Assembly (NCBI GenBank): GCA_958496175.1
Contig: OY292277.1
Coordinates: forward strand, 42,357,050-42,421,049
Length of the DNA: 64,000 nt
Direction: 5' to 3'
From: Sisyra terminalis
Lineage: Eukaryota; Arthropoda; Insecta; Neuroptera; Sisyridae
Position numbers and translations under genes: made by a program. Numbering within the stretch: the stretch's first letter is position 1; each line of letters begins with the position of its first letter. Positions 7,976 to 64,000 of the stretch are shown piece after piece. The notes beneath the pieces are model-generated. The model did not search any database, was not told the origin of the DNA, and saw only the letters and a list, made by a program, of their open reading frames with translations.

Positions 7976-7979
7976 ATTG

Positions 7980-28589: not shown

Positions 28590-29420
28590 GGAACTAGCAA
28601 TCAAAAGTTGGAATTGAAATAAAGCAATTGTCAAAAAATCACCAACAACCAACACTTTCATTATGTGTTTTTACACGCGAACCGGGGTAAAGTTGGTGTA
28701 ACCGGCTAAATAAATGGCTTCGTATCTTAAAATAATATAAAAACAAAAAATAAATTAGTTTACATTCTGAAAGGATATCCTTTTATTGATTCTCGCCAAG
28801 TTTAATGGTTTCATTCACCCGCCAGCACCCAACCCCCATTCCCCCATATACATATCGCTCACCCTCAATGGACGCACATAATCGAATTTAATCGGTTATT
28901 GAGAGTTCTGCACCAGCTTCGGGCAACAGAACCGTACTAAACTTAATTAACACTAAACATTATAAACAGTGCTTAAATATGCGACTTACCACTTGTGGTT
29001 TTCCATTTTTTTCCCCCTTGACTCATAAACGCTTTTAGTACATCGCGCCACAAGTTCAGATTCCTCAAATGCAATGATTAGTCACGCTTGGTTCCTCTTG
29101 TCGCCAACATTGCAACAATAGAGGGAGCTCTTTTGGAAAACAACATGTGCAACAATCAGTGATTAATAGTGGGATTTCTAGTGCAATTATGTAATATATT
29201 ATCGGAAAAAATTACTCAAATGCAACAAGTTTTAAATGATTTTAAAGTTTTTTGACCTACAATTTATTTTAGTAAATGTAAGTGGTTTTTGAAGTGTTTT
29301 ATTGAGAAAAAAATTGTGCAACAATGGTTGATGAAAACTTAGTGATAGAATTGTGATTACTATGAAGTTATACCCAAGTTTAGTTAGTCGAAGAAACCAA
29401 ATACGATTAGGAACCTCCGG
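28590..29420. other. Non-coding DNA between repeat copies
   Basis: Part is unique sequence (28640-29150). The segment 29140-29400 shows weak similarity to the repeat ('GTGCAACAATGGTTGATGAA'). No gene is recognised. Confidence 0.35.
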
Positions 29421-29424
29421 TATT

Positions 29425-29859
29425 GTTCATTACTCAACTGGCATCTTAGAAGTCCTAAAAATGTGCTCTTAGACCCAAAAAGATTTGAAATCTATGGATT
29501 ACACTCTTGAATGATTCAATTGTTTGGAATGAAATATTGGCACGTGCTTGTACATTGTTTGCAACAATTTGAATTATTTAAAGGCTTGGATATTGGATAT
29601 GGATCGTTAAACGTCCCTATACCTTTATTTTCAATTGTTGTAATTTATTTCTTGAAAAAAGTTAGGATTCCCCGATACCATAAAACACTACTAAGTAAAC
29701 AAGTTTCTTCAAAGTTACAGTGGAAAATTGGAAAATTAAAATGAAAAATGTGTAACAATGATTAATGAAATCTTAGTGGTGGGATTGTGATTACTATGAA
29801 GTTATACTAAAGTTTAGTTAGTCGAAAAAAAACAAAAGAAATTGAGAACCTCTGGTATT
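29425..29859 (+). repeat. Repeat of about 435 bp, copy 2 (uninterrupted)
   Basis: It starts near 'TTGTTCATTACTCAACTGGC' and runs through 'GAAATATTGGCACGTGC' and 'AAAATGAAAAATGTG' into the next copy. The landmark 'ATCTTAGAAGTCC' recurs 435 bp later. The 77-codon frame at 29511-29744 lies inside it and is not preserved in other copies. It provides empty sites for insertions in copies 1 and 3. Confidence 0.8.
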
Positions 29860-30530
29860 GCTTATTACTCAATTGACATCTTAGAAGTCCTAAAAATGTG
29901 CTCTTAGACCCAAAAAGATTTGAAATTTTTGGATTACACTCTTGAATGATTCAATTGATTGGAATGAAATATTGGCACGTGCTTGTACATTGTTTGCAAC
30001 AATATGAATTATTTAAAGACTAGGATATTGGATATGAATTGTTAAACGTCCCCATACCATTTTTTTCAATTGTTGTAATTTATTTATTGAAAAAAGTTAG
30101 AATTTCCCGATACTTTAAAAACACTATTAAGTAAAAAAATTTCTTCAAATTTAGAGTGGGAAATTGAAAAATTAAAATGAAAAATGGGCTCAAGTCCATT
30201 TTAGCACACCCCCAATCGGGCAACGTTGCACTTTCGATTTTGTTTTTAATTTAATTCGCGATTAAATTGGTCCATAATGAAAATTTAGCCACAAAAGAGA
30301 GAATTATACCATATTAGAATTGAATTAACATGAATATCGCGAATTAAATTAAAAACAAAGCCGAAAATGCAACGTTGCCAGATTGTGGGTGTGCTAAAAT
30401 GGACTTGAGCCGAAAAATGTGCAACAATGATTAATGAAAACTTTGTTGTAGGATTGTGATTACTATGAAGTTATACTTATGAAGTTATGCCCAAGTTTAG
30501 TTAGTCAAAAAAATCAAAAAAGATTGGAAA
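29860..30530 (+). repeat. Repeat of about 435 bp, copy 3 (with MITE)
   Basis: It parallels copy 2 until 'AAAATGAAAAATG' at 30174-30186, where the 225-bp MITE interrupts it. It resumes at 30412 with a repeated 'GAAAAATG'. Removing the MITE and one octamer brings the copy back close to 435 bp. Confidence 0.8.
30187..30411. mobile_element. Palindromic MITE with clean 8-bp target duplication
   Basis: The ends are 'GGCTCAAGTCCATTTTAGCA' and its reverse complement finishing 'AAAATGGACTTGAGCC'. Perfect octamers GAAAAATG lie on both sides (30179-30186, 30412-30419). Copy 2 of the host repeat has one GAAAAATG at the same place. The 8-bp duplication points to a hAT, P or Merlin-type enzyme; the end sequence does not decide which. 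Confidence 0.85.
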
Positions 30531-30534
30531 CCTA

Positions 30535-30840
30535 TGGTATTGCTCATTACTCAACTGACATCTTAGAAGTACTAAAATTGTGATCTTAGACCCAATAATA
30601 TTGGAAACCTTTTGATTACATTCTTGAATGATTCAATTGATTGTAATGAAATATTAGCACGTACTAGTACACTGTTTGCAACAATGTGAATTATATGTGA
30701 ATTATATTTACTTATTTTCAATTGTTAAAATTTATTTACTTAACAAAATTAGGATTTCCTGATTTCAAGGAAATCAGTTTCTTCAAATTTAGAGTGGGAT
30801 ATTGAAAAATGGAAACAAAAAATGTGCAACAATGATTGAT
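30535..30840 (+). repeat. Repeat of about 435 bp, copy 4 (shortened)
   Basis: It shares 'TCATTACTCAACTGACATC', 'GATTCAATTGATTG' and 'TTAGAGTGGG' with the other copies but has lost about 100 bp in the middle and diverges more. It ends before the unique sequence leading to the CABIT exon. Confidence 0.7.
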
Positions 30841-31315: not shown

Positions 31316-33073
31316 ATGGCAGCCACGGATGGTCAAATTGTATTAGCGGCTGCACGATGGTCCGAAGAAGGACATTATCTGCGCGATTTCATCTTAAAGC
31401 ATCCCCTGCCGGCTGTGGTCAAAGTCATCAAGGGCCAATATGGCGGATTGGGGGTGCCCACTTTACCCAATCCAGGATTGCAGTCGACAGCGCTTCTGAT
31501 TTCCGCTGGCGCGGCTCGGAAGCTTATAGCGCAGGCGGTGAAGTTGAAGGAAGGTCGACGGCTGGTTCCGGTTGGTTCTCGACTAGCGATTCCCGAATCG
31601 TATATGGGATACTTTGAGTTGTTGAGTGAGGAAGGTCGGGCGGTGCGATGTATTGAAAGTGTTTCGGAATTGGCACGTCGTAAACCGGAAGATGGATGTT
31701 TAGTTCGGGAACCGGTTCGAGCCGTTATGATTAAACCGGAATCGATCGAGTCGAACCTTCCCATTGCTGAAGGTGCGCGAACTATATCACCGGGTGAAAT
31801 TTTAGTGCCATGTGGTGAGTCGGGATTGTCGGGATCTCGAGGAAAGTTTCTGAAATGTATCGATTCGCATGGAGATGTTGTTCTTCTACCGATTGAACAA
31901 CGTGGAAAGTTCTCGGCGTTGGCTCGTGAAGATAATATAAGTGGTGTTCATACGGCGAAGAATTTGCTTAGTAAACGGCTTCCGTTGACTGTTCGACTAG
32001 TCCATGGAAGTCCCCCGCGCGGGATCAAAAGCACAAGTCATTTCCTACCCGAACTTCGATTACTAGCCGTGTGCGAAGAGGAGCACATCTTCGCCTTGCC
32101 ACTCCAAAAAGATTCTCATGGTCTCATAGCTCTACCTTTGGCTGCACCTCTTAAACTGCTTCGAACCCGAAACGAAGATCAACTGAAATCTCTCTTAGAA
32201 TTTACAAGACTTGTGGAACGTTCCAACAAAATGTTAATTGACGTCCAGGACAGAATACACATTTTAGAAGGACGACTAGCGGCTGTGCCACGTACTGGAT
32301 ATTTCCTACGCCGAAGCGCCTCGTCTGATTCAGCCGTTCCCAAACAGCTATCCAGACGTCGCGATGAAAACAAGGCTCCATCAGGAGGTCGCAATTCGCA
32401 CGACTACGACGAAATCGATCAAATCTACGATTATGTTCGTGGATTTGCACCCCTACCCAAAAGTGTGCTAGAACCTTCATCGACGCCATCATCCCCCAAA
32501 CTAGATAACCGACCCGAACCTCCTCCCATCGAAACAATCCCAACGAAAAAACAATCAGCGCCTGTAAAACGAACCCGTCGAACAGTCGAAACAAACATAA
32601 TCGAACACAAAGAGAAAGTCGTAGGCCTTCCAAAACTGTACATAAAAAATGGAAGTGCCCAAAAGTCACGGTTGTTTCGTCAGAAAAGTGCCTCACCGAT
32701 GAAAGAAGGCCCCCCAAGTCCCGTCTCCAAATCGGGATCACCTCTATTCAACATTCGATACAAATCCCTGTCGAATATTCAACAAGCAATGGAACTGGAC
32801 GCAATTCACGCGGGCATTATTAACGGCGGAACGTTGGACTCGAGTCACTCCGGAGGACGCACGTCGGGAGATTCGGCTGGCGCTAAGTTACCAGAAAAAC
32901 GATCTCGCAAATTATCACGACCACGAAGTTTAACAAACTTGGTATGGGGTCGACCCCCGGACCATCATCAACATCCACCAAAAAGCAAGCCTGAAGTCAC
33001 GCCGGTACATCGAAAATCTGCGAATAAATTAACGATCAGTGGACATAAGAGGGCAGGTCATTTGTATCTGTAA
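31316..33073 (+). CDS. CABIT-domain adaptor protein (Themis/GAREM-like), large exon
   Basis: This 585-residue frame is the only confident protein gene. Residues about 13-285 look like a CABIT domain, the module of the T-cell protein Themis and the adaptor GAREM. Visible marks are the N-terminal 'LPAVVKVIKGQYGGLG' strand and the core Cys181 in 'KCIDSHGDVVLLP'. Residues 286-322 look helical, possibly a coiled coil. The motif 'YDEIDQIYDYVRGFAPLP' (364-381) has tyrosines suited to SH2 binding. The tail (385-585) is basic, Ser/Pro-rich and probably disordered, ending in 'HLYL', which fits a class II PDZ ligand. The ATG has a good context (AAAATGG), but the frame stays open back to the acceptor at 31295, so an N-terminal extension from an upstream exon is possible. 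Higher GC than the surroundings supports selection. Among insect proteins I recall Serrano as the nearest type, but I am not sure, so no symbol is given. CABIT proteins act in tyrosine-kinase signalling in the cytoplasm; the role here is inferred. Confidence 0.85.
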   Translation: MAATDGQIVLAAARWSEEGHYLRDFILKHPLPAVVKVIKGQYGGLGVPTLPNPGLQSTALLISAGAARKLIAQAVKLKEGRRLVPVGSRLAIPESYMGYFELLSEEGRAVRCIESVSELARRKPEDGCLVREPVRAVMIKPESIESNLPIAEGARTISPGEILVPCGESGLSGSRGKFLKCIDSHGDVVLLPIEQRGKFSALAREDNISGVHTAKNLLSKRLPLTVRLVHGSPPRGIKSTSHFLPELRLLAVCEEEHIFALPLQKDSHGLIALPLAAPLKLLRTRNEDQLKSLLEFTRLVERSNKMLIDVQDRIHILEGRLAAVPRTGYFLRRSASSDSAVPKQLSRRRDENKAPSGGRNSHDYDEIDQIYDYVRGFAPLPKSVLEPSSTPSSPKLDNRPEPPPIETIPTKKQSAPVKRTRRTVETNIIEHKEKVVGLPKLYIKNGSAQKSRLFRQKSASPMKEGPPSPVSKSGSPLFNIRYKSLSNIQQAMELDAIHAGIINGGTLDSSHSGGRTSGDSAGAKLPEKRSRKLSRPRSLTNLVWGRPPDHHQHPPKSKPEVTPVHRKSANKLTISGHKRAGHLYL

Positions 33074-34482: not shown

Positions 34483-35555
34483 GGGGGACCGGATAGTATT
34501 GTCGTTATTTCAATATACAATTAAAGCACAAAATTTTCTTAAAACAATTGATTTTAAATCAATGATATAATCAGCCTCAATAATATTAAAGTTTTGACAT
34601 CTAGTGTGCAAATTTTTAATGCCATATTAGTAAAAATCAATTGATAAGCCAGGGAAATATAAAAAAAATCATTTTGAACATCACTTAAACTTTAAATTTT
34701 TTTACCACTTAATAAATGTGGTAACGATTGTAATAAATAAAAATTCAATGAAATAACTTTGGACAATTATAGTGGGGACAGCAATATCCACCCCCCCCCT
34801 TAATTTATTTGTTTTTTCCAGAACTTTTTTTCTGCAGAAGGACCTTGCATTACTATGTTGCAGCAAAGAATTTTATCAGTTAACAGTTCTTAAGTACTTT
34901 TGGGTATTTGGCCGGTCAATTATTTGACAGTTCTTTGATTTTCTGGCATACATTTCCCCTTTCTTCGTTGGTACCAGTTGGAGAAATGAAAATTATCGAA
35001 TTTGAACTTAAAAAAATTCTTTGGCATTAATGAACTGGCATTATGAAATTCATAAAGTTCATTAATGCCAAAGAATTTTTTTAAGTTCAAATTCGATATT
35101 TTTCATTTCTCCAACTGGTACCAACGAAGAAAGGGGAAAAAATTAACCAATTAGTTGAGGGGGGAAATGGTGCCAAATGTATGCCAGAAAATCAAAGAAT
35201 TGTCAAATAATCGACCGGCCAAATACCCAAAAGTGTCCAAAAACTGTCAATTGATAAAATTCATTAACATCTAATACACTTTGATAACCATTGAAAATGT
35301 TTTTAGTAACAACTTTGCGTTGCTATTTTGTGAAACTCGAAGATCATACAATACCAAATTTATATTCTTTCGGATTTTTAGTCCAACCATTTCAAAATAG
35401 ATTTTGGAATAAAAAATATTTTGTAATACTTTACGAAGTTGATAAATTACTCTAATCATAAAATATCTTGAGTACCATTTTGAAATTACTTATAAACAGA
35501 TAAATAGCAATTGAATGACTATAGGTTTAAAAACGACATTATTTTCCGGTACACC
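34483..35555 (-). mobile_element. Decayed mariner element with palindromic core
   Basis: The ends are 'GGGGGACCGGATAGTATTGTC' minus its last base on the left and, inverted, 'CATTATTTTCCGGTACACC' on the right, each bounded by TA. It is the same family as 21387-22656. The minus strand retains traces of transposase ('LQHSNAR' and 'KKVLEK'). The middle (34870-35270) has been turned into a palindrome, which destroys the gene. Confidence 0.7.
34870..35270. repeat. Large palindrome inside the mariner
   Basis: Arms of about 170-210 bp meet around 35045. Both contain 'TTTGGCATTAATGAAC', 'GGTACCAACGAAGAAAGGG' and 'GGCCGGTC'-type blocks in opposite orientation. The right arm keeps about 35 bp ('ACCAATTAGTTGAGG') that the left arm has lost. 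A fold-back repair event within the element would explain it. Confidence 0.8.
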
Positions 35556-41530: not shown

Positions 41531-41992
41531 AAACAACAATCAAGAATATTATATTTTAAACTTTGACTTGAGGATCTTTGACCTAAGGACTCCTGGTATC
41601 TGTACTCCGTGATGTAGTAGATTGGAATTTACAGTTTCTAATAACAACAACACTTTCTACTTAATGATTAATATACAAACTTTGGGAAGTGTACTACCAA
41701 CTGCATTTAACCGATACTGGACCTTAAATTGATGCAATTTTTTACCATTGCATTCGAACTCCTGTATCTATAGTCCGTGCTGATAGATGGTGGATTATCC
41801 GGTACTGAGCCAATGTTTAATATTTTTTTCAATTAAAAGGAGTTTATTGAACTTTGAGTCGTTAAAGAACTTAACAATTTTAAAGCAATAATAAAAGGCA
41901 ATTATTTTTTGAACCAATTTCAACCATACAAGGTACTATAGATAATATATGTACTATAATAGAGCAATGAAAAGTTTTTATAAACCCTCAAT

Positions 41993-42460
41993 TTTTAGTC
42001 CTTTCTAAGGGGTAACCTAAATGCCATCTAATAGGCCTAATGCATAATTTTTTTTCGATTTTAGATTCATTCTGACCTTTTGAAACCAATATTACGGTTT
42101 TGAGACCATCTTTTTCCCATTCGGCTGTTCTATAGCTTTAAAAGAACAAAAAGTGAACTCAAAATTATTATAAATAAGTTCTTATATCCCCAATTGATAA
42201 AATCCATTGTTTCCCAAGCTTTTTTTGTTCTATATTCCACCATATTAAAGTTTTGGGCAAGCTCTTAAATCAGTGGTTCCCAACCGATTTTGAGCCATGT
42301 GGCATGCTCCATCTTGGCATTTCTAAAATCCTGATGCCCCTCTCGTTATTTAAATTTTGTTTTTCAAAATTTTTTGATTATTCACCTGAAGGAAGCCTAA
42401 AAGCCCATGAACTTCGTATCCAAACAATCTTCCAATGGAAAGTTGATACAGAATAATCTT
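41993..42460 (+). repeat. Direct duplication, copy 1 (period about 475 bp)
   Basis: It contains 'GTAACCTAAATGCCA', 'GGCTGTTCTATAGC' and 'CAGTGGTTCCCAACCGATTT', all repeated about 475 bp downstream. The last motif is a hAT terminus, so each copy carries the start of a hAT-like element with the same flank ('CTTAAAT'). The duplication therefore followed the insertion. Confidence 0.75.
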
Positions 42461-42468
42461 CACCGTTA

Positions 42469-42930
42469 ATTATCAGTCCTTTCTGAACAGTAACCTAAAT
42501 GCCACCTAATACACTTAATGCCTAATAGTTTTTCGACCTTTGATTCATTCTGACTTCTTAAACCAATATGACGGTTTCGAGACTATATTTTTCCCAATGG
42601 GCTGTTCTATAACTTCAAAAGAACAAAAAATGAACTCAAAATTAAGTAAGTCCTTATATCCCCAATTGATATTGTTAATTCATTATTTCCCAAGCTTTTT
42701 TGCTCTATATTCTACCATATTAAAGTTCTGGACAAACTCTTAAATCAGTGGTTCCCAACCGATTTTGGGTCATGCCCCTCTAGACATTTCTAAAATTCTA
42801 ATACCCCCCTCATGATATTTAATTTTTTTATCAAAAATTTTTCGGTTATTCACCTGAAAGAAGCTTAAAAGCTCATTAACTTGGTATCTAAATAAGCTTC
42901 CAAAAAACTGGTCATCCATGAAAGAGAACA
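42469..42930 (+). repeat. Direct duplication, copy 2
   Basis: Sister of the preceding block. The hAT-type terminus is at 42746. Short frames (42540-42743, 42770-42967) fall within and are not conserved in copy 1. Confidence 0.75.
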
Positions 42931-47654: not shown

Positions 47655-50141
47655 ATATAACTTTCGATTGGAATCCTTAAAAAAACAAATTAAGTTTGAC
47701 GATTTTCGTGAAAAATCAACGTTGGTTAACCCACGGTTTTTTTTTTGACGAAATTTTTTTTTGTTTCGAATTCGAACTAGATTGTTTAATACATTCTTAC
47801 GAATCCGAAACCTTATTTTACAATTACAATTACAAGCATTTGAAGTTGGGGATAATTTTTGGCCTTGTGATGATAGACTTCATCTCTTATTTGTGATTTG
47901 TTTGAAAAAAAATTGCACAGAATGTTCGAGGTAAGCTGTCCTTTCAACTTCCGTGATAAAAAAACTACCCTTGCGTTTGGACGATTTTCGAAAAAATCAA
48001 CAATGGGTCATGCTTTTCTTTAAGGAAATTCTTTGTGGATTAAAAATCTATTGGAGTATTTACGAATGGGACCTTTGGGGCATTACCACGGATATGAATC
48101 GGTGCGTGGTTCGTAAATCATATCTTATTTAATATCATATTGATTTCATCCCTTAAACGTGGTTGTTTTAGGAAAAATTTGCACAGCATGTACGGGTGGG
48201 CTTATACTTTCGATTGGCCTCAAAAAAGTTTTTTTTTTTTGAATTATGACGATTTTAATGTAAAATCAACGATAGTTGATCAATCCGTCCAAATTTCAAT
48301 CGCTTGTAACATATAGAGAACGATTTTCGAACCAATGACTGTTTCGGGCTTGTAACAATGTATCAAACGATAATATAACAATTTACTTCTAATTCCAAAC
48401 AAAAAAAAATTTCAAATTTTTTTGCGATGCCAATCAAAAATATACGTCCTGCCATACATGCTGTACAAATTTTTCCGAAAACAAAGTACCTACGTATAAT
48501 ATTTTTGCACTTGAAAATTGTTCTTATTGAAACTTTGAAACGATATTACTGGAGTCGTGTTTCACACAGGACAATTTTTTTTTCTTATTACTGCTCACGT
48601 AAGGGCATTGTTTCATAATCCATAAAAAACTGGTCTTTATAATGAAAAGTCACTCCTTGAAAATGAGGAATTTCAGGGCAAATTTAGTATACGCAATTTT
48701 TCATCTTTTACTTCCGTTTTTAATTCCCATGGATTCTGCCACCAAATTCAAATTCTATTCGTGCAGTTAACTTAAGGATGATTCAATCTAAATAATTCAG
48801 CTAAATTTTAACGAAAAAATCATTTCTTACGTCCTTTTTGTGCACTTGAAAATAGATCTTTTTCATTTTTGAAACGATATTGTGGGTGTTCTTTTCCAGA
48901 CAGGACAATCTTTTTTTTTATTATTACAATTCACTTATGGGTCTCCTTTTATAAATCGTAAAAAAAATAATGCTTATAAGGATAACAAACTTTCAACTAT
49001 CGATTTTTTTTTACAAAATGCTGAAGTTAGACAACTAACTTTGCAATTATGTAAAAGTGCTGTGCCTTATATTCTTCAATGTACAAGTTAATGTAACATA
49101 ATTGTATGATTTGATTTAGTAATAATATAATTTATTTTTACAGATCCAAATGACCCGGAAGTTAAGGACAAGGGAATTGGTTTTGCATTGAAGAAAGTAA
49201 CATTTTTTTGGGAGATAAATGATCTGTGAGTACCCTTCTTTTGAGACTTCTAAATGTTATTCTTATTGAAATTCTCGCTACAGAAGAAGCTGATCGATGA
49301 CAACAGAGAATTGTTCATGGGATTTGAATTTTTCAACATTTCTAAGTGGACGTTTGAGGAATCAATGCGGATCGTTTAATAAACTTCAATCAAATTCTTT
49401 AAGAATATAATTTCCACATTTGTTAACTCCCGAGAAAAACATGAATGGATTTACTATAACAATCAGTGGTGTAAATGTGTTTCAATTAATCAGTGAACGT
49501 GAAGTGATAAAGTAGTAAAAGTGATAAATAATCAAAATATCAGAAAAATCAAAAGCTTTTAATTTTTATATGATTGTAAAAATTGATACTGTTACATAAA
49601 TTATATAACGAAATAGAACTATTACTATTGTAATAAACTATTGTATTAGATTAAAGAATTAATTGATATTTAACATTAATAAATTATTTTTAATAAAATT
49701 TGTTGTTTCAATTCGATCTACCTTATCCGTCTCCCTGAAGTTTTTATATTTCAGAGTTTTTTCACAATTAACCAAGATGAGTTAAATTAATTCAATAATA
49801 TGATAGGTAAGGTAAGTAGAATGTTTTTCGATCGATTATCGGAAAATACGATAAAAAACGATATCGAAAAATATCTGAACTTTTCGATGTCCTTAATCCC
49901 TGTTATTAATAATAAAAATTACATATAACATTAGAAGATACTTTTCAAATACAAATGTGTTTTATCGAAGTAAAGGGATGAAGGACATTAAAATGTTACT
50001 ATGTCTTTAATCAAATTTTCCGGTATTAACCTGGAGAAGCTACGGTTAAAATATTTTTGGAAAATTCCAATTCCTTCGATCGAAAAAAATTTTCAAGTTC
50101 CAATCGATTAAGAAATCTTTATATATGAGTATAAACGATCA
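47655..50141 (+). repeat. Left arm of the giant inverted repeat
   Basis: The arm matches the reverse complement of 60541-63060 over almost its whole length. Shared landmarks include 'ACTACCCTTGCGTTTGGACG' (47966), 'TTTGCACAGCATGTAC' (48179) and the exon at 49144. It is built partly of degenerate subrepeats of about 270 bp ('GACGATTTTCG...AAATCAAC' near 47698, 47979 and 48248) and about 370 bp (48470 and 48830). It runs into the first satellite unit, whose first 170 bp also belong to the inverted match. Its short open frames (47696, 48427, 48882) are not preserved in the right arm. Confidence 0.85.
49144..49379 (+). pseudogene. Two-exon end of an unrecognised gene, left copy
   Basis: After an acceptor ('TTTATTTTTACAG') exon 1 reads 'DPNDPEVKDKGIGFALKK'. 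Exon 2 (49284-49379) follows the acceptor 'CTCGCTACAG' and reads 'KKLIDDNRELFMGFEFF', ending 'EESMRIV' and stop. AATAAA overlaps the stop (49378). A GTGAGT donor at 49226 would put the exons out of frame, while a GTAACA donor at 49197 joins them in frame. I do not recognise the protein. The same pieces occur in the right arm, so this is either a captured gene end or part of a duplicated gene whose upstream exons lie elsewhere. Confidence 0.5.
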
Positions 50142-51032
50142 ATACATATATCTTCCAATGGCCGAATCGATAAGCGCACGGAAAATGTGAAACGGAAAGA
50201 CGATGGATCGATCCCCCAATAAGGTAAAAGATTTTTATATTTCTACTAACCAATTTCTAATTAATATATATTCGTTACAGCTTAAATTATCACTTTCGAT
50301 CGTTAATAATTATCTTAACGTTAGTTTCAGCCGAATAATTCGATCATCACTTCCAACCTTTCGGGGTTGAGAAGTGATCGATCGATTAAGTAGATTTTTT
50401 TTTTTGTTTATACATAATATGACGTCATACACACGTCGGCACCCTTGTGACGACACTCAATGACGTCATTCTCGAAAAAAATCGAAAAAGGAGCGAATTT
50501 TCGATTTTCGTGAAATAGAATTTTGGGAATCGCTTAGTTACGTCACGGGAGGTCTAAAAAACATATCCTATAGTCAATATTTTTCATTTTTTTTTTTCAA
50601 AAATTTTTGGACCGAAAACCGAAAAATCCCAAAAATAGGCCAAATATCTCGATTTTTTTCACTTTTTTCATCTTTAACGTCGATTTGCGCGTTAACTATC
50701 GACCGTACGATACAGAGTGATAGCTCATTCGATAGCGCTTGAATTACTCTATCGATGGTGTAAATTTGGTCCCGGAAAACCATAAGGGGAAAAACTTTTT
50801 TTTTCGACTTTCCAGAAATTTCATTTCGTCGACTAAATGCACGTCGATTTTATGAATTTTTTTTTGTCGATTTTTTTAATGAAATTCTCACAATAGATAC
50901 CTAACGTTACGATTGAAACGAATATTTAAAAACTTTTTTGCTTTTCGATACCTTTCATCGAATTTTTGATATTGAAATTTTTAATTAATCATCTAATGCT
51001 TTGCATACGTTAAATTGTTTTATCGAAAAAAA
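49976..51032 (+). repeat. Satellite unit 1
   Basis: The most divergent of the ten: 'CGACCGTACGATACAGAG' where the others have 'CGATCGTACGATACCGAG'. An extra T shifts the minus-strand frame. The junction before it is 'GAAGTAAAGGGATGAAGG', as before units 8 and 10. Confidence 0.9.
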
Positions 51033-51208
51033 GGATAAAGGACATTAAAATGTTACTATGTCTTTAATCAAATTTTCCGGTATTGACCTGGAGAAGCTAC
51101 GGTTAAAATATTTTTGGAAAATTCCAATTCCTTCGATCGAAAAAAATTTTCAAGTTCCAATCGATTAAGAAATCTTTATATATGAGTATAAACGATCAAT
51201 ACATATAT

Positions 51209-51293
51209 CTTCCAATGGCCGAATCGATAAGCGCACGGAAAATGTGAAACGGAAAGACGATGGATCGATCCCCCAATAAGGTAAAAGATTTTT
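51209..51293 (+). promoter_or_regulatory. tRNA-like Pol III promoter in each satellite unit (unit 2 shown)
   Basis: 'TGGCCGAATCGATAAG' (51216-51231) fits the A-box form of Ser/Leu tRNAs. 'GGATCGATCCC' (51262-51272) sits 46 bp further on, in B-box position (consensus GGTTCGANNCC, one key base different). A TTTTT terminator follows at 51289-51293. A transcript of about 80-90 nt is possible. The acceptor stem does not pair well, so it is a tRNA relic rather than a tRNA. The same sequence recurs in all ten units. Confidence 0.5.
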
Positions 51294-51399
51294 ATATTTC
51301 TACTAACCAATTTCTAATTAATATATATTCGTTACAGCTTAAATTATCACTTTCGATCGTTAATAATTATCTTAACGTTAGTTTCAGCCGAATAATTCG

Positions 51400-51440
51400 A
51401 TCATCACTTCCAACCTTTCGGGGTTGAGAAGTGATCGATC
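51400..51440 (+). other. Hairpin in each satellite unit (unit 2 shown)
   Basis: 'CACTTCCAACC' (51405-51415) and 'GGTTGAGAAGTG' (51422-51433) pair with one bulge around loop TTTCGG, and the flanks 'GATC' extend the match. It lies between the tRNA-like segment and the CRE sites. Confidence 0.6.
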
Positions 51441-51475
51441 GATTACGTAGATTTTTTTTTTGTTTATACATAATA

Positions 51476-51601
51476 TGACGTCATACACACGTCGGCACCC
51501 TTGTGACGACACTCAATGACGTCATTCTCGAAAAAAATCGAAAAAGGAGCGAATTTTCGATTTTCGTGAAATAGAATTTTGGGAATCGCTTAGTTACGTC
51601 A
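51476..51601 (+). promoter_or_regulatory. Cluster of three CRE-type sites per unit (unit 2 shown)
   Basis: Full palindromic TGACGTCA occurs at 51476-51483 and 51517-51524, and a related TTACGTCA at 51594-51601. These are the binding sequences of CREB/ATF bZIP factors. Three within 126 bp, in every unit, would give about 30 sites in the array. Function is inferred from motif only. Confidence 0.45.
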
Positions 51602-51751
51602 CGGGAGGTCTAAAAAACATATCCTATAGTCAATATTTTTCATTTTTTTTTTCAAAAATTTTTGGACCGAAAACCGAAAAATCCCAAAAATAGGCCAAAT
51701 ATCTCGAATTTTTTCACTTTTTTCATCTTTAACGTCGATTTGCGCGTTAAC

Positions 51752-51812
51752 TATCGATCGTACGATACCGAGTGATAGCTCATTCGATAGCGCTTGAATT
51801 ACTCTATCGATG
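51752..51812 (+). promoter_or_regulatory. CGATA cluster per unit (unit 2 shown)
   Basis: Within about 60 bp there are CGATA or its complement TATCG at about 51752, 51763, 51784 and 51805. In flies, clustered CGATA is the binding pattern of the insulator protein BEAF-32, and TATCGATA that of DREF. Whether this species has such factors is unknown. Confidence 0.35.
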
Positions 51813-52088
51813 GTGTAAATTTGGTCCCGGAAAACCATAAGGGGAAAAACTTTTTTTTTCGACTTTCCAGAAATTTCAATTCGTCGACTAAATGCACGTC
51901 GATTTTATGAATTTTTTTTTTGTCGATTTTTTTTATGAAATTCTCACAATAGATACCTAACGTTACGATTGAAACGAATATTTAAAAACTTTTTTGCTTT
52001 TCGATACCTTTCATCGAATTTTTGATATTGAAATTTTTAATTAATCATCTAATGCTTTGCATACGTTAAATTGTTTTATCGAAAAAAA

Positions 52089-53144
52089 GGATAAAGGACA
52101 TTATAATGTTACTATGTCTTTAATCAAATTTTCCGGTATTAACCTGGAGAAGCTACGGTTAAAATATTTTTGGAAAATTCCAATTCCTTCGATCGAAAAA
52201 AATTTTCAAGTTCCAATCGATTAAGAAATCTTTATATATGAGTATAAACGATCAATACATATATCTTCCAATGGCCGAATCGATAAGCGCACGGAAAATG
52301 TGAAACGGAAAGACGATGGATCGATCCCCCAATAAGGTAAAAGATTTTTATATTTCTACTAACCAATTTCTAATTAATATATATTCGTTACAGCTTAAAT
52401 TATCACTTTCGATCGTTAATAATTATCTTAACGTTAGTTTCAGCCGAATAATTCGATCATCACTTCCAACCTTTCGGGGTTGAGAAGTGATCGATCGATT
52501 ACGTAGATTTTTTTTTTGTTTATACATAATATGACGTCATACACACGTCGGCACCCTTGTGACGACACTCAATGACGTCATTCTCGAAAAAAATCGAAAA
52601 AGGAGCGAATTTTCGATTTTCGTGAAATAGAATTTTGGGAATCGCTTAGTTACGTCACGGGAGGTCTAAAAAACATATCCTATAGTCAATATTTTTCATT
52701 TTTTTTTTCAAAAATTTTTGGACCGAAAACCGAAAAATCCCAAAAATAGGCCAAATATCTCGAATTTTTTCACTTTTTTCATCTTTAACGTCGATTTGCG
52801 CGTTAACTATCGATCGTACGATACCGAGTGATAGCTCATTCGATAGCGCTTGAATTACTCTATCGATGGTGTAAATTTGGTCCCGGAAAACCATAAGGGG
52901 AAAAACTTTTTTTTTCGACTTTCCAGAAATTTCAATTCGTCGACTAAATGCACGTCGATTTTATGAATTTTTTTTTTGTCGATTTTTTTTATGAAATTCT
53001 CACAATAGATACCTAACGTTACGATTGAAACGAATATTTAAAAACTTTTTTGCTTTTCGATACCTTTCATCGAATTTTTGATATTGAAATTTTTAATTAA
53101 TCATCTAATGCTTTGCATACGTTAAATTGTTTTATCGAAAAAAA
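52089..53144 (+). repeat. Satellite unit 3
   Basis: Member of a block (units 3-5) in which no differences were seen by eye. Marked by 'ACATTATAATG', 'GGAGCGAATT' and 'CAATTCGTCGAC'. Confidence 0.9.
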
Positions 53145-54200
53145 GGATAAAGGACATTATAATGTTACTATGTCTTTAATCAAATTTTCCGGTATTAACC
53201 TGGAGAAGCTACGGTTAAAATATTTTTGGAAAATTCCAATTCCTTCGATCGAAAAAAATTTTCAAGTTCCAATCGATTAAGAAATCTTTATATATGAGTA
53301 TAAACGATCAATACATATATCTTCCAATGGCCGAATCGATAAGCGCACGGAAAATGTGAAACGGAAAGACGATGGATCGATCCCCCAATAAGGTAAAAGA
53401 TTTTTATATTTCTACTAACCAATTTCTAATTAATATATATTCGTTACAGCTTAAATTATCACTTTCGATCGTTAATAATTATCTTAACGTTAGTTTCAGC
53501 CGAATAATTCGATCATCACTTCCAACCTTTCGGGGTTGAGAAGTGATCGATCGATTACGTAGATTTTTTTTTTGTTTATACATAATATGACGTCATACAC
53601 ACGTCGGCACCCTTGTGACGACACTCAATGACGTCATTCTCGAAAAAAATCGAAAAAGGAGCGAATTTTCGATTTTCGTGAAATAGAATTTTGGGAATCG
53701 CTTAGTTACGTCACGGGAGGTCTAAAAAACATATCCTATAGTCAATATTTTTCATTTTTTTTTTCAAAAATTTTTGGACCGAAAACCGAAAAATCCCAAA
53801 AATAGGCCAAATATCTCGAATTTTTTCACTTTTTTCATCTTTAACGTCGATTTGCGCGTTAACTATCGATCGTACGATACCGAGTGATAGCTCATTCGAT
53901 AGCGCTTGAATTACTCTATCGATGGTGTAAATTTGGTCCCGGAAAACCATAAGGGGAAAAACTTTTTTTTTCGACTTTCCAGAAATTTCAATTCGTCGAC
54001 TAAATGCACGTCGATTTTATGAATTTTTTTTTTGTCGATTTTTTTTATGAAATTCTCACAATAGATACCTAACGTTACGATTGAAACGAATATTTAAAAA
54101 CTTTTTTGCTTTTCGATACCTTTCATCGAATTTTTGATATTGAAATTTTTAATTAATCATCTAATGCTTTGCATACGTTAAATTGTTTTATCGAAAAAAA
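53145..54200 (+). repeat. Satellite unit 4
   Basis: Identical to unit 3 as far as can be read. Confidence 0.9.
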
Positions 54201-55256
54201 GGATAAAGGACATTATAATGTTACTATGTCTTTAATCAAATTTTCCGGTATTAACCTGGAGAAGCTACGGTTAAAATATTTTTGGAAAATTCCAATTCCT
54301 TCGATCGAAAAAAATTTTCAAGTTCCAATCGATTAAGAAATCTTTATATATGAGTATAAACGATCAATACATATATCTTCCAATGGCCGAATCGATAAGC
54401 GCACGGAAAATGTGAAACGGAAAGACGATGGATCGATCCCCCAATAAGGTAAAAGATTTTTATATTTCTACTAACCAATTTCTAATTAATATATATTCGT
54501 TACAGCTTAAATTATCACTTTCGATCGTTAATAATTATCTTAACGTTAGTTTCAGCCGAATAATTCGATCATCACTTCCAACCTTTCGGGGTTGAGAAGT
54601 GATCGATCGATTACGTAGATTTTTTTTTTGTTTATACATAATATGACGTCATACACACGTCGGCACCCTTGTGACGACACTCAATGACGTCATTCTCGAA
54701 AAAAATCGAAAAAGGAGCGAATTTTCGATTTTCGTGAAATAGAATTTTGGGAATCGCTTAGTTACGTCACGGGAGGTCTAAAAAACATATCCTATAGTCA
54801 ATATTTTTCATTTTTTTTTTCAAAAATTTTTGGACCGAAAACCGAAAAATCCCAAAAATAGGCCAAATATCTCGAATTTTTTCACTTTTTTCATCTTTAA
54901 CGTCGATTTGCGCGTTAACTATCGATCGTACGATACCGAGTGATAGCTCATTCGATAGCGCTTGAATTACTCTATCGATGGTGTAAATTTGGTCCCGGAA
55001 AACCATAAGGGGAAAAACTTTTTTTTTCGACTTTCCAGAAATTTCAATTCGTCGACTAAATGCACGTCGATTTTATGAATTTTTTTTTTGTCGATTTTTT
55101 TTATGAAATTCTCACAATAGATACCTAACGTTACGATTGAAACGAATATTTAAAAACTTTTTTGCTTTTCGATACCTTTCATCGAATTTTTGATATTGAA
55201 ATTTTTAATTAATCATCTAATGCTTTGCATACGTTAAATTGTTTTATCGAAAAAAA
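54201..55256 (+). repeat. Satellite unit 5
   Basis: Identical to unit 3 as far as can be read. Confidence 0.9.
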
Positions 55257-56312
55257 GGATAAAGGACATTATAATGTTACTATGTCTTTAATCAAATTTT
55301 CCGGTATTAACCTGGAGAAGCTACGGTTAAAATATTTTTGGAAAATTCCAATTCCTTCGATCGAAAAAAATTTTCAAGTTCCAATCGATTAAGAAATCTT
55401 TATATATGAGTATAAACGATCAATACATATATCTTCCAATGGCCGAATCGATAAGCGCACGGAAAATGTGAAACGGAAAGACGATGGATCGATCCCCCAA
55501 TAAGGTAAAAGATTTTTATATTTCTACTAACCAATTTCTAATTAATATATATTCGTTACAGCTTAAATTATCACTTTCGATCGTTAATAATTATCTTAAC
55601 GTTAGTTTCAGCCGAATAATTCGATCATCACTTCCAACCTTTCGGGGTTGAGAAGTGATCGATCGATTACGTAGATTTTTTTTTTGTTTATACATAATAT
55701 GACGTCATACACACGTCGGCACCCTTGTGACGACACTCAATGACGTCATTCTCGAAAAAAATCGAAAAAGTAGCGAATTTTCGATTTTCGTGAAATAGAA
55801 TTTTGGGAATCGCTTAGTTACGTCACGGGAGGTCTAAAAAACATATCCTATAGTCAATATTTTTCATTTTTTTTTTCAAAAATTTTTGGACCGAAAACCG
55901 AAAAATCCCAAAAATAGGCCAAATATCTCGATTTTTTTCACTTTTTTCATCTTTATCGTCGATTTGCGCGTTAACTATCGATCGTACGATACCGAGTGAT
56001 AGCTCATTCGATAGCGCTTGAATTACTCTATCGATGGTGTAAATTTGGTCCCGGAAAACCATAAGGGGAAAAACTTTTTTTTTCGACTTTCCAGAAATTT
56101 CATTTCGTCGACTAAATGCACGTCGATTTTATGAATTTTTTTTTTGTCGATTTTTTTTATGAAATTCTCACAATAGATACCTAACGTTACGATTGAAACG
56201 AATATTTAAAAACTTTTTTGCTTTTCGATACCTTTCATCGAATTTTTGATATTGAAATTTTTAATTAATCATCTAATGCTTTGCATACGTTAAATTGTTT
56301 TATCGAAAAAAA
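55257..56312 (+). repeat. Satellite unit 6
   Basis: Chimeric: the first part carries 'ACATTATAATG' like units 3-5, while the second part carries 'GTAGCGAATT' and 'TTTATCGTCG' like unit 8. This is the footprint of unequal exchange or conversion. Confidence 0.9.
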
Positions 56313-57370
56313 GGATAAAGGACATTAAAATGTTACTATGTCTTTAATCAAATTTTCCGGTATTAACCTGGAGAAGCTACGGTTAAAATATTTTTGGAAA
56401 ATTCCAATTCCTTCGATCGAAAAAAATTTTCAAGTTCCAATCGATTAAGAAATCTTTATATATGAGTATAAACGATCAATACATATATCTTCCAATGGCC
56501 GAATCGATAAGCGCACGGAAAATGTGAAACGGAAAGACGATGGATCGATCCCCCAATAAGGTAAAAGATTTTTATATTTCTACTAACCAATTTCTAATTA
56601 ATATATATTCGTTACAGCTTAAATTATCACTTTCGATCGTTAATAATTATCTTAACGTTAGTTTCAGCCGAATAATTCGATCATCACTTCCAACCTTTCG
56701 GGGTTGAGAAGTGATCGATCGATTACGTAGATTTTTTTTTTTGTTTATACATAATATGACGTCATACACACGTCGGCACCCTTGTGACGACACTCAATGA
56801 CGTCATTCTCGAAAAAAATCGAAAAAGTAGCGAATTTTCGATTTTCGTGAAATAGAATTTTGGGAATCGCTTAGTTACGTCACGGGAGGTCTAAAAAACA
56901 TATCCTATAGTCAATATTTTTCATTTTTTTTTTCAAAAATTTTTGGACCGAAAACCGAAAAATCCCAAAAATAGGCCAAATATCTCGATTTTTTTCACTT
57001 TTTTCATCTTTAACGTCGATTTGCGTGTTAACTATCGATCGTACGATACCGAGTGATAGCTCATTCGATAGCGCTTGAATTACTCTATCGATGGTGTAAA
57101 TTTGGTCCCGGAAAACCATAAGGGGAAAAACTTTTTTTTTCGACTTTCCAGAAATTTCATTTCGTCGACTAAATGCACGTCGATTTTATGAATTTTTTTT
57201 TTGTCGATTTTTTTAATGAAATTCTCACAATAGATACCTAACGTTACGATTGAAACGAATATTTAAAAACTTTTTTGCTTTTCGATACCTTTCATCGAAT
57301 TTTTGATATTGAAATTTTTAATTAATCATCTAATGCTTTGCATACGTTAAATTGTTTTATCGAAGTAAAG
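56313..57370 (+). repeat. Satellite unit 7
   Basis: Carries 'TTTGCGTGTTAAC' and a longer T-run, as does unit 9. It ends in the 'GAAGTAAAGGG' type of junction. Confidence 0.9.
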
Positions 57371-58426
57371 GGATGAAGGACATTAAAATGTTACTATGTC
57401 TTTAATCAAATTTTCCGGTATTAACCTGGAGAAGCTACGGTTAAAATATTTTTGGAAAATTCCAATTCCTTCGATCGAAAAAAATTTTCAAGTTCCAATC
57501 GATTAAGAAATCTTTATATATGAGTATAAACGATCAATACATATATCTTCCAATGGCCGAATCGATAAGCGCACGGAAAATGTGAAACGGAAAGACGATG
57601 GATCGATCCCCCAATAAGGTAAAAGATTTTTATATTTCTACTAACCAATTTCTAATTAATATATATTCGTTACAGCTTAAATTATCACTTTCGATCGTTA
57701 ATAATTATCTTAACGTTAGTTTCAGCCGAATAATTCGATCATCACTTCCAACCTTTCGGGGTTGAGAAGTGATCGATCGATTACGTAGATTTTTTTTTTG
57801 TTTATACATAATATGACGTCATACACACGTCGGCACCCTTGTGACGACACTCAATGACGTCATTCTCGAAAAAAATCGAAAAAGTAGCGAATTTTCGATT
57901 TTCGTGAAATAGAATTTTGGGAATCGCTTAGTTACGTCACGGGAGGTCTAAAAAACATATCCTATAGTCAATATTTTTCATTTTTTTTTTCAAAAATTTT
58001 TGGACCGAAAACCGAAAAATCCCAAAAATAGGCCAAATATCTCGATTTTTTTCACTTTTTTCATCTTTATCGTCGATTTGCGCGTTAACTATCGATCGTA
58101 CGATACCGAGTGATAGCTCATTCGATAGCGCTTGAATTACTCTATCGATGGTGTAAATTTGGTCCCGGAAAACCATAAGGGGAAAAACTTTTTTTTTCGA
58201 CTTTCCAGAAATTTCATTTCGTCGACTAAATGCACGTCGATTTTATGAATTTTTTTTTTGTCGATTTTTTTTATGAAATTCTCACAATAGATACCTAACG
58301 TTACGATTGAAACGAATATTTAAAAACTTTTTTGCTTTTCGATACCTTTCATCGAATTTTTGATATTGAAATTTTTAATTAATCATCTAATGCTTTGCAT
58401 ACGTTAAATTGTTTTATCGAAAAAAA
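57371..58426 (+). repeat. Satellite unit 8
   Basis: Carries 'TTTATCGTCGATTTGCGCG', as does unit 6. Confidence 0.9.
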
Positions 58427-59484
58427 GGATAAAGGACATTAAAATGTTACTATGTCTTTAATCAAATTTTCCGGTATTAACCTGGAGAAGCTACGGTTAA
58501 AATATTTTTGGAAAATTCCAATTCCTTCGATCGAAAAAAATTTTCAAGTTCCAATCGATTAAGAAATCTTTATATATGAGTATAAACGATCAATACATAT
58601 ATCTTCCAATGGCCGAATCGATAAGCGCACGGAAAATGTGAAACGGAAAGACGATGGATCGATCCCCCAATAAGGTAAAAGATTTTTATATTTCTACTAA
58701 CCAATTTCTAATTAATATATATTCGTTACAGCTTAAATTATCACTTTCGATCGTTAATAATTATCTTAACGTTAGTTTCAGCCGAATAATTCGATCATCA
58801 CTTCCAACCTTTCGGGGTTGAGAAGTGATCGATCGATTACGTAGATTTTTTTTTTTGTTTATACATAATATGACGTCATACACACGTCGGCACCCTTGTG
58901 ACGACACTCAATGACGTCATTCTCGAAAAAAATCGAAAAAGTAGCGAATTTTCGATTTTCGTGAAATAGAATTTTGGGAATCGCTTAGTTACGTCACGGG
59001 AGGTCTAAAAAACATATCCTATAGTCAATATTTTTCATTTTTTTTTTCAAAAATTTTTGGACCGAAAACCGAAAAATCCCAAAAATAGGCCAAATATCTC
59101 GATTTTTTTCACTTTTTTCATCTTTAACGTCGATTTGCGTGTTAACTATCGATCGTACGATACCGAGTGATAGCTCATTCGATAGCGCTTGAATTACTCT
59201 ATCGATGGTGTAAATTTGGTCCCGGAAAACCATAAGGGGAAAAACTTTTTTTTTCGACTTTCCAGAAATTTCATTTCGTCGACTAAATGCACGTCGATTT
59301 TATGAATTTTTTTTTTGTCGATTTTTTTAATGAAATTCTCACAATAGATACCTAACGTTACGATTGAAACGAATATTTAAAAACTTTTTTGCTTTTCGAT
59401 ACCTTTCATCGAATTTTTGATATTGAAATTTTTAATTAATCATCTAATGCTTTGCATACGTTAAATTGTTTTATCGAAGTAAAG
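58427..59484 (+). repeat. Satellite unit 9
   Basis: Matches unit 7 in all marker positions checked, including the 'GAAGTAAAGGG' junction after it. Confidence 0.9.
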
Positions 59485-60538
59485 GGATGAAGGACATTAA
59501 AATGTTACTATGTCTTTAATCAAATTTTCCGGTATTAACCTGGAGAAGCTACGGTTAAAATATTTTTGGAAAATTCCAATTCCTTCGATCGAAAAAAATT
59601 TTCAAGTTCCAATCGATTAAGAAATCTTTATATATGAGTATAAACGATCAATACATATATCTTCCAATGGCCGAATCGATAAGCGCACGGAAAATGTGAA
59701 ACGGAAAGACGATGGATCGATCCCCCAATAAGGTAAAAGATTTTTATATTTCTACTAACCAATTTCTAATTAATATATATTCGTTACAGCTTAAATTATC
59801 ACTTTCGATCGTTAATAATTATCTTAACGTTAGTTTCAGCCGAATAATTCGATCATCACTTCCAACCTTTCGGGGTTGAGAAGTGATCGATCGATTACGT
59901 AGATTTTTTTTTTGTTTATACATAATATGACGTCATACACACGTCGGCACCCTTGTGACGACACTCAATGACGTCATTCTCGAAAAAAATCGAAAAAGTA
60001 GCGAATTTTCGATTTTCGTGAAATAGAATTTTGGGAATCGCTTAGTTACGTCACGGGAGGTCTAAAAAACATATCCTATAGTCAATATTTTTCATTTTTT
60101 TTTTCAAAAATTTTTGGACCGAAAACCGAAAAATCCCAAAAATAGGCCAAATATCTCGAATTTTTTCACTTTTTTCATCTTTAACGTCGATTTGCGTGTT
60201 AACTATCGATCGTACGATACCGAGTGATAGCTCATTCGATAGCGCTTGAATTACTCTATCGATGGTGTAAATTTGGTCCCGGAAAACCATAAGGGGAAAA
60301 ACTTTTTTTTTCGACTTTCCAGAAATTTCATTTCGTCGACTAAATGCACGTCGATTTTATGATTTTTTTTTTGTCGATTTTTTTAATGAAATTCTCACAA
60401 TAGATACCTAACGTTACGATTGAAACGAATATTTAAAAACTTTTTTGCTTTTCGATACCTTTCATCGAATTTTTGATATTGAATTTTTAATTAATCATCT
60501 AATGCTTTGCATACGTTAAATTGTTTTATCGAAAAAAA
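59485..60538 (+). repeat. Satellite unit 10
   Basis: Mixture of unit 7/9 markers ('GCGTGTTAAC') with 'CTCGAATTTTTTC' of units 2-5. It has small private deletions near its end. Confidence 0.9.
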
Positions 60539-60540
60539 GG

Positions 60541-63060
60541 ATGATCGTTTATATTCATATATAAAGATTTCTTTATCGTTTGGAACTTGAAAATTTTTTT
60601 CGATCGAAGGAATTGGAATTTTCCAAAAATATTTTAACCGTAGCTTCTCCAGGTTAATCCCGGAAAATTTGACTAAAGACATTGTAACATTTTAATGTCC
60701 TTCATCCTTTTTTTCGATAAAACACATTTGTATTTGAAAAGTATCTTCTAACGTTATATGTAATTTTTATAATTAATAACAGGGATTAAGGACATCGAAA
60801 AGTTCAGATATTTTTCGATATCGTTTTTTATCGTATTTTCCGATAATCGATCGAAAAACATTTTACTTACCTTACCTATCATATTATTGAATTAATTTAA
60901 CTCATCATGGTATTCTAATTGTAAAAAAACTCGGAAATATAAAAACTTCAGGGAGACGGATAAGGTAGATCGAATTGAAACAACAAATTTTATTAAAAAT
61001 AATTTATTAATGTTAAATATCAATTAATTCTTTAATCTAATACAATAGTTTATTACAATAGTAATAGTTCTATTTCGTTATATAATTTATGTAACAGTAT
61101 CAATTTTTACAATCATATAAAAATTAAAAGCTTTTGATTTTTCTGATATTTTGATTATTTATCACTTTAACTACTTTATCACTTCACGTTCACTGAATAA
61201 TTGAAACACAATTTACACCACTTATTGTTATAGTAAATCCATTCGGGTTTTTCTCGGGAGTTAACAAATGTGGAAATTATATTCTTAAAGAATTTGATTG
61301 AAGTTTATTAAACGATCCGCATTGATTCCTCAAACGTCCACTTAGAAATGATGAAAAATTCAAATCCCATGAACAATTCTTTGTTGTCATCGATCAGCTT
61401 CTTCTGTAGCGAAAAATTCAATAAGAATTACATTTAGAGGTCTCCAAAGAAGGGTACTCACTCATTATTTATCTCTCAAAAAAATGTTACTTTCTTCAAT
61501 GCAAAACCAATTCCCTTGTCCTTAACTTCCGGGTCATTTGGATCTGTAAAAATAAATTATATTATTACTTAATCAAATCATACAATCATAGCAATCATAC
61601 TACATTAACTTGTACAATGAAGAACATAAGGCACAGCACATTTACATAATTGCAAAGTTATTTGCCTAACTTCAGCATTTTGTAAAAAAAATCGGTAGTT
61701 GTAAGTTTGTTATCCTTATAAGCATAATTTTTTTTACGATTTATAAAAGGAAATCCATAAGTGAATTGTAATAAAAAAAAAGATTGTCCTGTCTGGAAAA
61801 GAACACCCACAATATCGTTTCAAAAATGAAAAAGATCTATTTTCAAGTGCACAAAAAGGACGTAAGAAATGATTTTTTCGTTAAAATTTAGCTGAATTAT
61901 TTAGATTGAATCATCCTTAAGTTAACTGCACGAATAGAATTTGAATTTGGTGACAGAATCCATGGGAAATAAAAACGGGAAGTAAAAGATGAAAAATTGC
62001 GTATACTTAATTTAAATTTTCATTATAAAGACCAGTTTTCTCAACGGATTATGAAACAATGCCCTTACGTGAGCAAAAATAAGAAAAAAAATTGGTCCTG
62101 TGTGCAACACGACTCCCGCAATATCGTTTCAAAGTTTCAAAAAGGACAATTTTCAATTGCAAAAATATTATACGTACTTTGTTTTCGGAAAAATTTGCAC
62201 AGCATGTATGGTAGGACGTATATTATCGATTGGCATCAAAAAAAAAAATGAAAAAAATGATTTGACGGTTTTCGTGAAAAAGTAGCGATGGTTAACCCAC
62301 GGTTTTTTGACGAAATTTTTTTTTGTTTGGAATTAGAAGTAGATTGTTATATTATCGTTTTATCCATTGTTACGAACCCTAAACAACCTTTGGTTCGAAA
62401 ATCATCCCTTATATAACGATGTTACAAGCGATTGAATTTTAGATGGATTGATCGTTTGTTTCCATCGTTGAATTTTCCTTAAAATCGTCAAAATTCAAAA
62501 AAAAAAATTTCGATGTCAATCGAAAGTATAAGTCCACCTGTACATGCTGTGCAAATTTTTCCTAAAACAATCACGTTTAAGGGATGAAATCAATATGATA
62601 TTAAATAAGATATGATTTACGAACCACGCACCGGTTCATGTCCGTGGTAATATCCCATAGGTCCCATACGAAAATACTCCAATAGATTTCTAATGCACGA
62701 AAAATTTTCTCAAAGAAAAGCATAACCCATTGTTGATTTTTTCGAAAATCGTCCAAACGCAAGGGTAGTTTTTTTATCATGGAAGTTGAAAGGACAGCTT
62801 ACCTCGAACAGGCTGTGAATTTTTTTTTTTAAAAAATCACAACTAAAGGTTGAAGTCGATCATCACAAGGCCAGAAATTATCCCCAACATCAAATGCTTG
62901 TAATTGATATTAAATAAAGGTTTTTCTATGAACCACGCTCCAATTCATGTCCGCGGTATTATTCCAAGCGCAAAAATAGCAATGAATTTCGAATTCAAAA
63001 TAAAAAAAATCGTGTACTAACCATTGTTTATTCTCTATTGAATATCGTCAAAACGCAAGG
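60541..63060 (-). repeat. Right arm of the giant inverted repeat
   Basis: Reverse complement of 47655-50141. It begins abruptly with 'ATGATCGTTTATATTCATAT', the inverse of satellite sequence 165 bp into unit 1. About 170 bp of satellite unit therefore appear in inverted orientation before the unique arm sequence starts near 60718. It has an extra block near 62259-62320 ('GTTAACCCACGG') absent at the matching place in the left arm. Beyond about 63060 the match fades. Confidence 0.85.
61308..61553 (-). pseudogene. Two-exon end of an unrecognised gene, right copy
   Basis: Inverted counterpart of 49144-49379. Exon 1 (61462-61553) keeps 'DPNDPEVKDKGIGFALKK' but reads TGA where the left copy has TGG, five codons later. 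Exon 2 (61308-61403) is open to the same stop with two substitutions (R to K, N to I). If the inner GTAACA donor is used, the new stop lies in the intron and both copies would still encode the same end. Otherwise this copy is broken. Confidence 0.5.
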
Positions 63061-64000
63061 GTGGTTTTGATACCGGTTCTTTGTTTGTTTTTTTTTTTTT
63101 TTGATACTTTTTGTTTAAAATGGCTTTTTTTGTAGACAAAAGGTGTACCTTTAAAGTTTTTGTTTACAAATTACTTCATTAATTATTGGTTTAAAGAAGA
63201 AAACTCAAGTTTTTTTTTAAGATCCGTTAGATGATTAATTTTCCAAGTTGGAGACGTTTCGTTACTTATCGCAACTTCATCAGTAGTCTTAGATCGTAAA
63301 AACGTTTCAGTTTCAGTCCAAGTTCATCTAATTATATAAGAACAGAATATTATTATCTTAGATGTAAAAAAAAATCAAAATCTCGAAAGTAAAAGACAAT
63401 ACTTGTCTTAATATAAGTATATTTATTTAAGCAAAATACATTTTATCATTTAATTTCTAATGATATTACACTTTGTTAACATTCCTTTTTTAATTTGATG
63501 TTATTCATAATTATACATAATGAAAGCATTCATTTAGTTCTTGTCAAAGTTTAAAAATTAAACTATATTAATAAGTAATTCGATAAAAAATATAGATATA
63601 TGCAACAATGCAATATTCATTGTTTAATAAAAGTTATTTCTTTTCTTTTTTTCGGACATCCGGATCGTCTAAATTTGACAAAAATTGAATTTTAAGACAC
63701 ATGATATATTTAGCACCAAATTTCTTTTGATCTTTTTTATTTTATTTTTTATTTGAAATCTAAGTACTACGTTATAATTATTAAAATTTAGCTATTTTCT
63801 AAATATGGCAGCATAGGCACTGTTCATTAGACAAGTGTATAATATTTATATAATATATTATTTTCTTTTTTTTCAGTACAAATATAATATTTTCAATGAA
63901 TCTGGATATCTTTTTACAATTATAATATATTTATAGATACATTAGAATATATGTTGCTATTTTTTTTTTCAATTTAGGACTAGTTTTATTTGTTTTTAAC
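63061..64000. other. AT-rich DNA beyond the inverted repeat
   Basis: Apart from a hammerhead-like motif at 63257-63283 nothing is recognised. Confidence 0.35.
63257..63283 (-). ncRNA. Hammerhead-ribozyme-like core
   Basis: On the minus strand 'CTGATGA' (complement of 63277-63283) is followed by a stem of GTTGC with GTAAC (one G-U pair), then 'GAAA' and 'CGTC'. This is the conserved core with a GUC triplet at the expected cleavage position. Stem I pairing could not be confirmed. Confidence 0.4.

Follow-up and report, generated by a model that had tools for sequence, protein, structure and literature searches.

A Ten-Unit Tandem Array Within a Dispersed Family of Palindromic Repeats in Sisyra terminalis

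The Array and Its Inverted Arms

The window analysed here is a 64,000-nucleotide stretch of the Sisyra terminalis genome (C4:42357050-42421049 in a 376.6-Mb assembly of 11 contigs, which was also the genome searched). At 31316-33073 it holds a 585-aa ORF for a CABIT-domain (serrano-type) protein, placed by a one-protein tree among holometabolous insects and outside the sampled beetles. Another dispersed repeat family is found in the window at 6001-7973, 15507-16236, and 30187-30694, with copies in both orientations that are 77-93% alike. Duplications of 170-460 bp, in tandem or nearly so and with 82-91% identity, lie at 21829-23309, 29309-30694, and 41984-42903, and one of them is related to 35062-35547. 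The structure of main interest, an array of tandem units (here called U) between inverted arms, is laid out in Table 1.

Table 1. Features of the array and its arms, in window coordinates
Feature	Position	Strand	Remarks
Left arm outside the array	47655..49952	+	Inverted match to right arm; modules recur at other loci
Left arm, A-type repeats	~47655-48490	+	
Left arm, B repeats	48490-48990	+	
Left arm, inner segment X	48990-49952	+	
Exon-like piece A in X	49146..49226	+	Open here; stop in right-arm copy; splice-like borders
Exon-like piece B in X	49284..49379	+	TAA at end; open in 16/30 arms
Tandem array, ten U units of 1055-1059 bp, head to tail	49953..60517	+	Unit starts: 49953, 51012, 52068, 53124, 54180, 55236, 56292, 57349, 58406, 59463
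Stretch TCGATAGCGCTTGAATTACTCTATCGA, first U unit	50729..50755	+	Forms a short inverted repeat (TCGATAG ... CTATCGA)
27 bp of eleventh unit and junction to inverted sequence	60518..60544	+	
Inverted partial unit, positions 188 to 1	60542..60729	-	From self-comparison; ~95% like array units
Right arm	60730..63068	-	Inverted match to left arm
Right arm, X	~60772-61705	-	
Right arm, B	61705-62176	-	
Right arm, A-type repeats	62172-63068	-	

An earlier note on this DNA had described ten units of ~1056 bp enclosed by arms that are reverse complements of each other, and both parts of the description hold: all ten units are complete, and a comparison of the window with itself recovers the reverse-complement match. 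The segments ~47809-50141 and 62924-60542 align over 2,291 columns with 94.2% identity (ungapped columns). They differ by 134 substitutions (67 transitions and 67 transversions) and 15 gap events, for a K2P distance of 0.061; kilobase-long matches at such identity are beyond chance. Homology drops to 62-66% in the two outermost 120-base windows and reaches ~47655 and 63068, so that the outer limits first proposed for the arms were fair. The right arm does open with inverted satellite sequence, as had been noticed, over 188 bp rather than 170, and the same 188 bp also ends the left block of the match (49953-50141). Both arms thus have the border between arm and unit at the same place.

Divergence between the arms is uneven. 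The K2P distance is 0.12 at 47809-48420, 0.06 at 48421-49142, 0.02 in the 573 bp adjoining the array, and 0.04 in the 188 bp of unit sequence, a pattern that partial homogenisation of the inner part may have left. With 134 substitutions and 15 gaps between them, the arms are unlike a folded read, which makes an assembly fold unlikely, and the layout recurs at other loci; we regard an artefact, whether from a read folded on itself or from a collapsed repeat with a wrong count, as extremely improbable. Assemblies often get the copy number of arrays wrong, and it is only the number of units that assembly error puts in doubt.

Within the array, units 3, 4, and 5 are identical to one another, as are units 7 and 9, and unit 1 is the most divergent. 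Identity of this kind is what recent unequal exchange would leave, and the array has the homogenised, head-to-tail units that characterise a satellite. It breaks off at unit position ~27 and continues with inverted position 188; depending on the unit variant compared, the two sides of this junction may have 1 to 3 bp of microhomology. The region of TCGATAGCGCTTGAATTACTCTATCGA is the most conserved of the unit (in each of the 87 units, 26-base windows here depart from the consensus at no more than two positions), and the inverted repeat that it contains could be a protein-binding site. We considered two other roles for the unit. As a known RNA gene it gave no Rfam match at the gathering score and one below it, with an E-value of 2.4. 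The longest ORF stretch on its minus strand is open for at least 75 aa in 55 of 87 units; we rejected a coding role because minority letters are spread evenly across codon positions (0.103, 0.103, and 0.096), with no codon-position bias.

Copies Elsewhere in the Genome

One U unit compared with the whole genome gave at least 121 matches, the best of them 89% identical, from the 39 of 1,327 candidates that were scored. The window's own array is absent from this result, presumably because very common words are skipped, and other plain arrays may be missed for that reason. At least 101 of the matches exceed 300 bp, and these fall into at least 38 clusters besides the window. Of the 38 listed, 36 include matches on both strands, and tail-to-tail units no more than 200 bp apart occur in 32. 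The arm segment X is likewise dispersed, with at least 41 matches including the two window arms (40 of 989 candidates scored) and at least seven inverted pairs besides the window's own, their starts 3.6-4.9 kb apart.

We analysed 25 loci outside the window, or 26 with it. Twenty were chosen by U (L009-L028, of which L010 and L011 were extended by L029-L032 and are named E10 and E11) and five by X (L034, L035, and the extended loci L033, L038/L039, and L040/L041, named E33, E38, and E40). All five loci chosen by X contain U, and 16 of the 20 chosen by U contain X, limited in L020 to ~108 bp; X was not found at L013, L018, L022, and E11. The whole-genome comparison of unit and arm that the earlier note had called for thus finds units and the arm segment X together at dispersed palindromic loci. 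The reverse outcome, units everywhere without arms, is not what is seen, as X is missing from no more than 4 of the 20 U-chosen loci.

The outermost repeats take part in the same arrangement. A-type repeats run in opposite orientations on the two sides of E11, L027, E33, and E40, and therefore belong to the palindrome at those loci. From the outside in, the common order is A repeats (335 bp), then B with X or another middle segment, outer U, inner U, the centre, and the mirror image of all these, and the commonest layout often has two ~1-kb U units per arm. At most loci the outer U units form one clade apart from the inner ones (those of L013, L018, L026, and L034 fall elsewhere), and at L035 a U-like unit is located outside X. 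Open frames that resemble host genes lie beside the palindromes at L035:149-1156 and L034:1552-1923; the former reads like a homogentisate 1,2-dioxygenase. The structure in the window is no one-off rearrangement, and we read it as a member of a dispersed palindromic repeat family that has expanded locally. Among the fold-back, satellite, and palindrome papers that our literature searches listed, no title or abstract opening describes this family.

Exon-Like Pieces in the Arms

Both window arms carry the exon-like pieces of Table 1 in convergent orientation with splice-like borders. This is what would be expected had a host gene been duplicated in inverted orientation, with a satellite growing at the turning point, as an event specific to the window locus. 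The same layout is present at dozens of loci, however, and only part of the family has the pieces open: 5 of 28 arms, the window's left one included, keep piece A open and in register for length (two further arms are too short to read), and piece B is open in the arms counted in Table 1. Searches of Pfam, the PDB, and the protein database gave neither piece a significant relative. We read them as probable remnants belonging to no working gene, and consider the host-gene explanation, which had been among the earlier note's candidates, very unlikely given the recurrence of the layout and broken pieces for which no significant relative was seen.

Palindrome Centres and Arm Similarity

One type of palindrome centre occurs in 20 of the 26 loci, at 84% identity or more over at least 102 columns, the reference being itself one of the 20. 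A second type is common to three loci on contig C7, and E10, L028, and the window have no full match to the centre type. A centre common to so many loci argues for spread of the copies as palindromes. In a tree of X, 9 of the 12 two-armed loci, the window among them, have their left and right copies as sisters (the exceptions are L009, L012, and L016), and arms within a locus are up to 99.7% alike, as at E10. Sister arms argue for later exchange between the arms of a copy.

Sister arms would also be expected of palindromes that arose independently, and the main rival to a mobile family therefore persists. It holds that there is no transposon, that recombination, circular DNA, or segmental duplication dispersed half-elements or satellite pieces, and that many of them were made palindromic where they lay. 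Such a change could come from foldback priming at a DNA break or from template switching, the window then holding one such duplication with later growth of its array. The near identity of arms such as those of E10 fits this account, and foldback priming has a precedent in yeast, where inverted repeats near a break yield inverted duplications by that route (PMC10622511). As far as that report describes them, the yeast duplications resemble the palindromes studied here in having near-identical inverted arms and a short centre; they differ in being single events in unique DNA, whereas the family occupies many loci with shared centres. A centre common to 20 of 26 loci would not be expected from independent events unless some hot spot directed them. 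We looked for one in the form of a natural hairpin at direct U junctions, and shuffled sequences scored equally well at the 10 window junctions and 7 others. This rival account is to our minds possible and on balance doubtful.

Comparison with Fold-Back Elements

Several properties of the family are those of fold-back elements: long inverted repeats make up most of the element, tandem units inside them vary in number, and dispersed copies share the same arrangement. Other properties are missing. No target-site duplication above chance was seen at 12 of 13 palindrome ends, the true ends being uncertain; at the thirteenth, in L035, the flanking repeat is a T-rich 11-mer. No constant terminal sequence was seen, as the outer limits of the common sequence vary between loci, several of which are cut by the edges of the analysed sequence. 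The ORFs examined gave no Pfam match above the cut-off. At E33 both 5.8-kb arms contain a segment that is also amplified on contig C7 at 14.74-15.25 Mb, where its copies lie in both orientations with 93-99% identity and represent a recent local cluster. That the outer arm at E33 might be host DNA present in single copy was considered and rejected, since this arm is a local repeat of that C7 region with scattered relatives. The scarcity of target-site duplications and the extension of the E33 arms into a locally amplified segment both favour formation of the palindromes in place. Palindromic amplification without transposition, another candidate of the earlier note, may also account for the structure in the window. 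Judged by its structure the family is fold-back-type, and its transposition is something that we infer.

The earlier note had proposed a fold-back element among its explanations, which is the best structural fit, and had known of no named element with such a layout. Two elements described in Drosophila, Tetris (PMC4079207) and Galileo (PMC3573991), do combine long inverted repeats with tandem units inside them. Tetris of Drosophila virilis is described as a fold-back element whose long inverted repeats consist of a flanking domain plus tandem units in varying number; these units also make kb-size satellite-like arrays, some of them flanked by two arm domains (PMC4079207). Its arms reach 1,735 bp, its units are ~220 bp long, target duplications of 8-10 bp accompany three complete copies, and the copies described there are without transposase (PMC4079207). 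The window family resembles Tetris in its long inverted arms with tandem units able to form satellite-like arrays, and differs from the published account in arms of ~2.3-5.8 kb, in at least three tandem modules, and in target duplications, none of which were seen at the ends checked. For Galileo of Drosophila mojavensis, gain and loss of tandem units is reported to change arm length independently on each side (PMC3573991), and inverted arms with tandem-unit numbers that differ between sides are what the window family has in common with it. The Galileo arms described are shorter (to ~1.26 kb), some copies encode a P-superfamily transposase, and the element has 7-bp target duplications (PMC3573991), which sets it apart from the family.

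Uneven Amplification of Modules

Counts of U are unequal between the two sides in 15 of the 26 loci, some of which are cut by the edges of the sequence analysed. Outside the window, an analysed locus has at most five U units running the same way (L021). Amplification also affects the 335-bp A module, which on the right side of E11 occurs at least 15 times, with 97-100% identity to a single copy, and continues to where the analysed sequence ends. A search with the E11 copy gave at least 25 full or near-full matches of 96-97% identity in C3:59821475-59892398 (8 of 524 candidates scored), and from the match positions this 71-kb region is judged to hold many copies head to tail. At least three modules of the family occur in tandem (335, ~340, and 1056 bp), and the window's ten-unit array is one instance of a family tendency to amplify modules. 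Beside the right-hand A repeats of L009 there is a further tandem repeat (7457-8999), its shift ~260-270 bp, which contains an open frame of 195 aa with no Pfam match.

Discussion

We consider it probable that the structure in the window belongs to a dispersed family of fold-back-type repeats, large and palindromic, and that its central unit expanded at this locus. Copies of the family would most likely have spread as palindromes, moving perhaps as a DNA transposon, and exchange between arms would keep the two arms alike within most copies. Tandem modules would grow and shrink by unequal exchange, with unequal crossing over the presumed means of expansion. At the window, ten units on the left face 0.18 of a unit on the right, for which the simplest history is that a canonical palindrome lost its centre and most of its right-hand unit while the left side expanded. 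Most of the inverted U of the right arm would have gone in a deletion spanning the centre, which joined array position ~27 to inverted position 188, and the left U units would have expanded to ten, perhaps in that order. Against a fold-back family we counted the few target duplications, the varying outer limits, the E33 segment, the absence of X from 4 of 20 loci, arms that are not sisters in 3 of 12, and outer U units that fall outside the main clade at four loci. A further reading, to which we give little credence, is a satellite factory borne on palindromes, with multi-kilobase palindromes propagating without classical transposon ends, their arms exchanging, and each module able to seed satellites.

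The origin of satellite DNA is hard to catch in the act. Here a single genome has the same modules at low number, one or two in a dispersed palindrome, and in one copy amplified to ten units in a row; another module recurs many times within 71 kb. Stages between a mobile-like repeat and a satellite are therefore open to comparison within one genome. If the fold-back reading is correct, this would be a fold-back-type family whose arms are two to three times the length published for Tetris and Galileo and co-evolve inside most copies.
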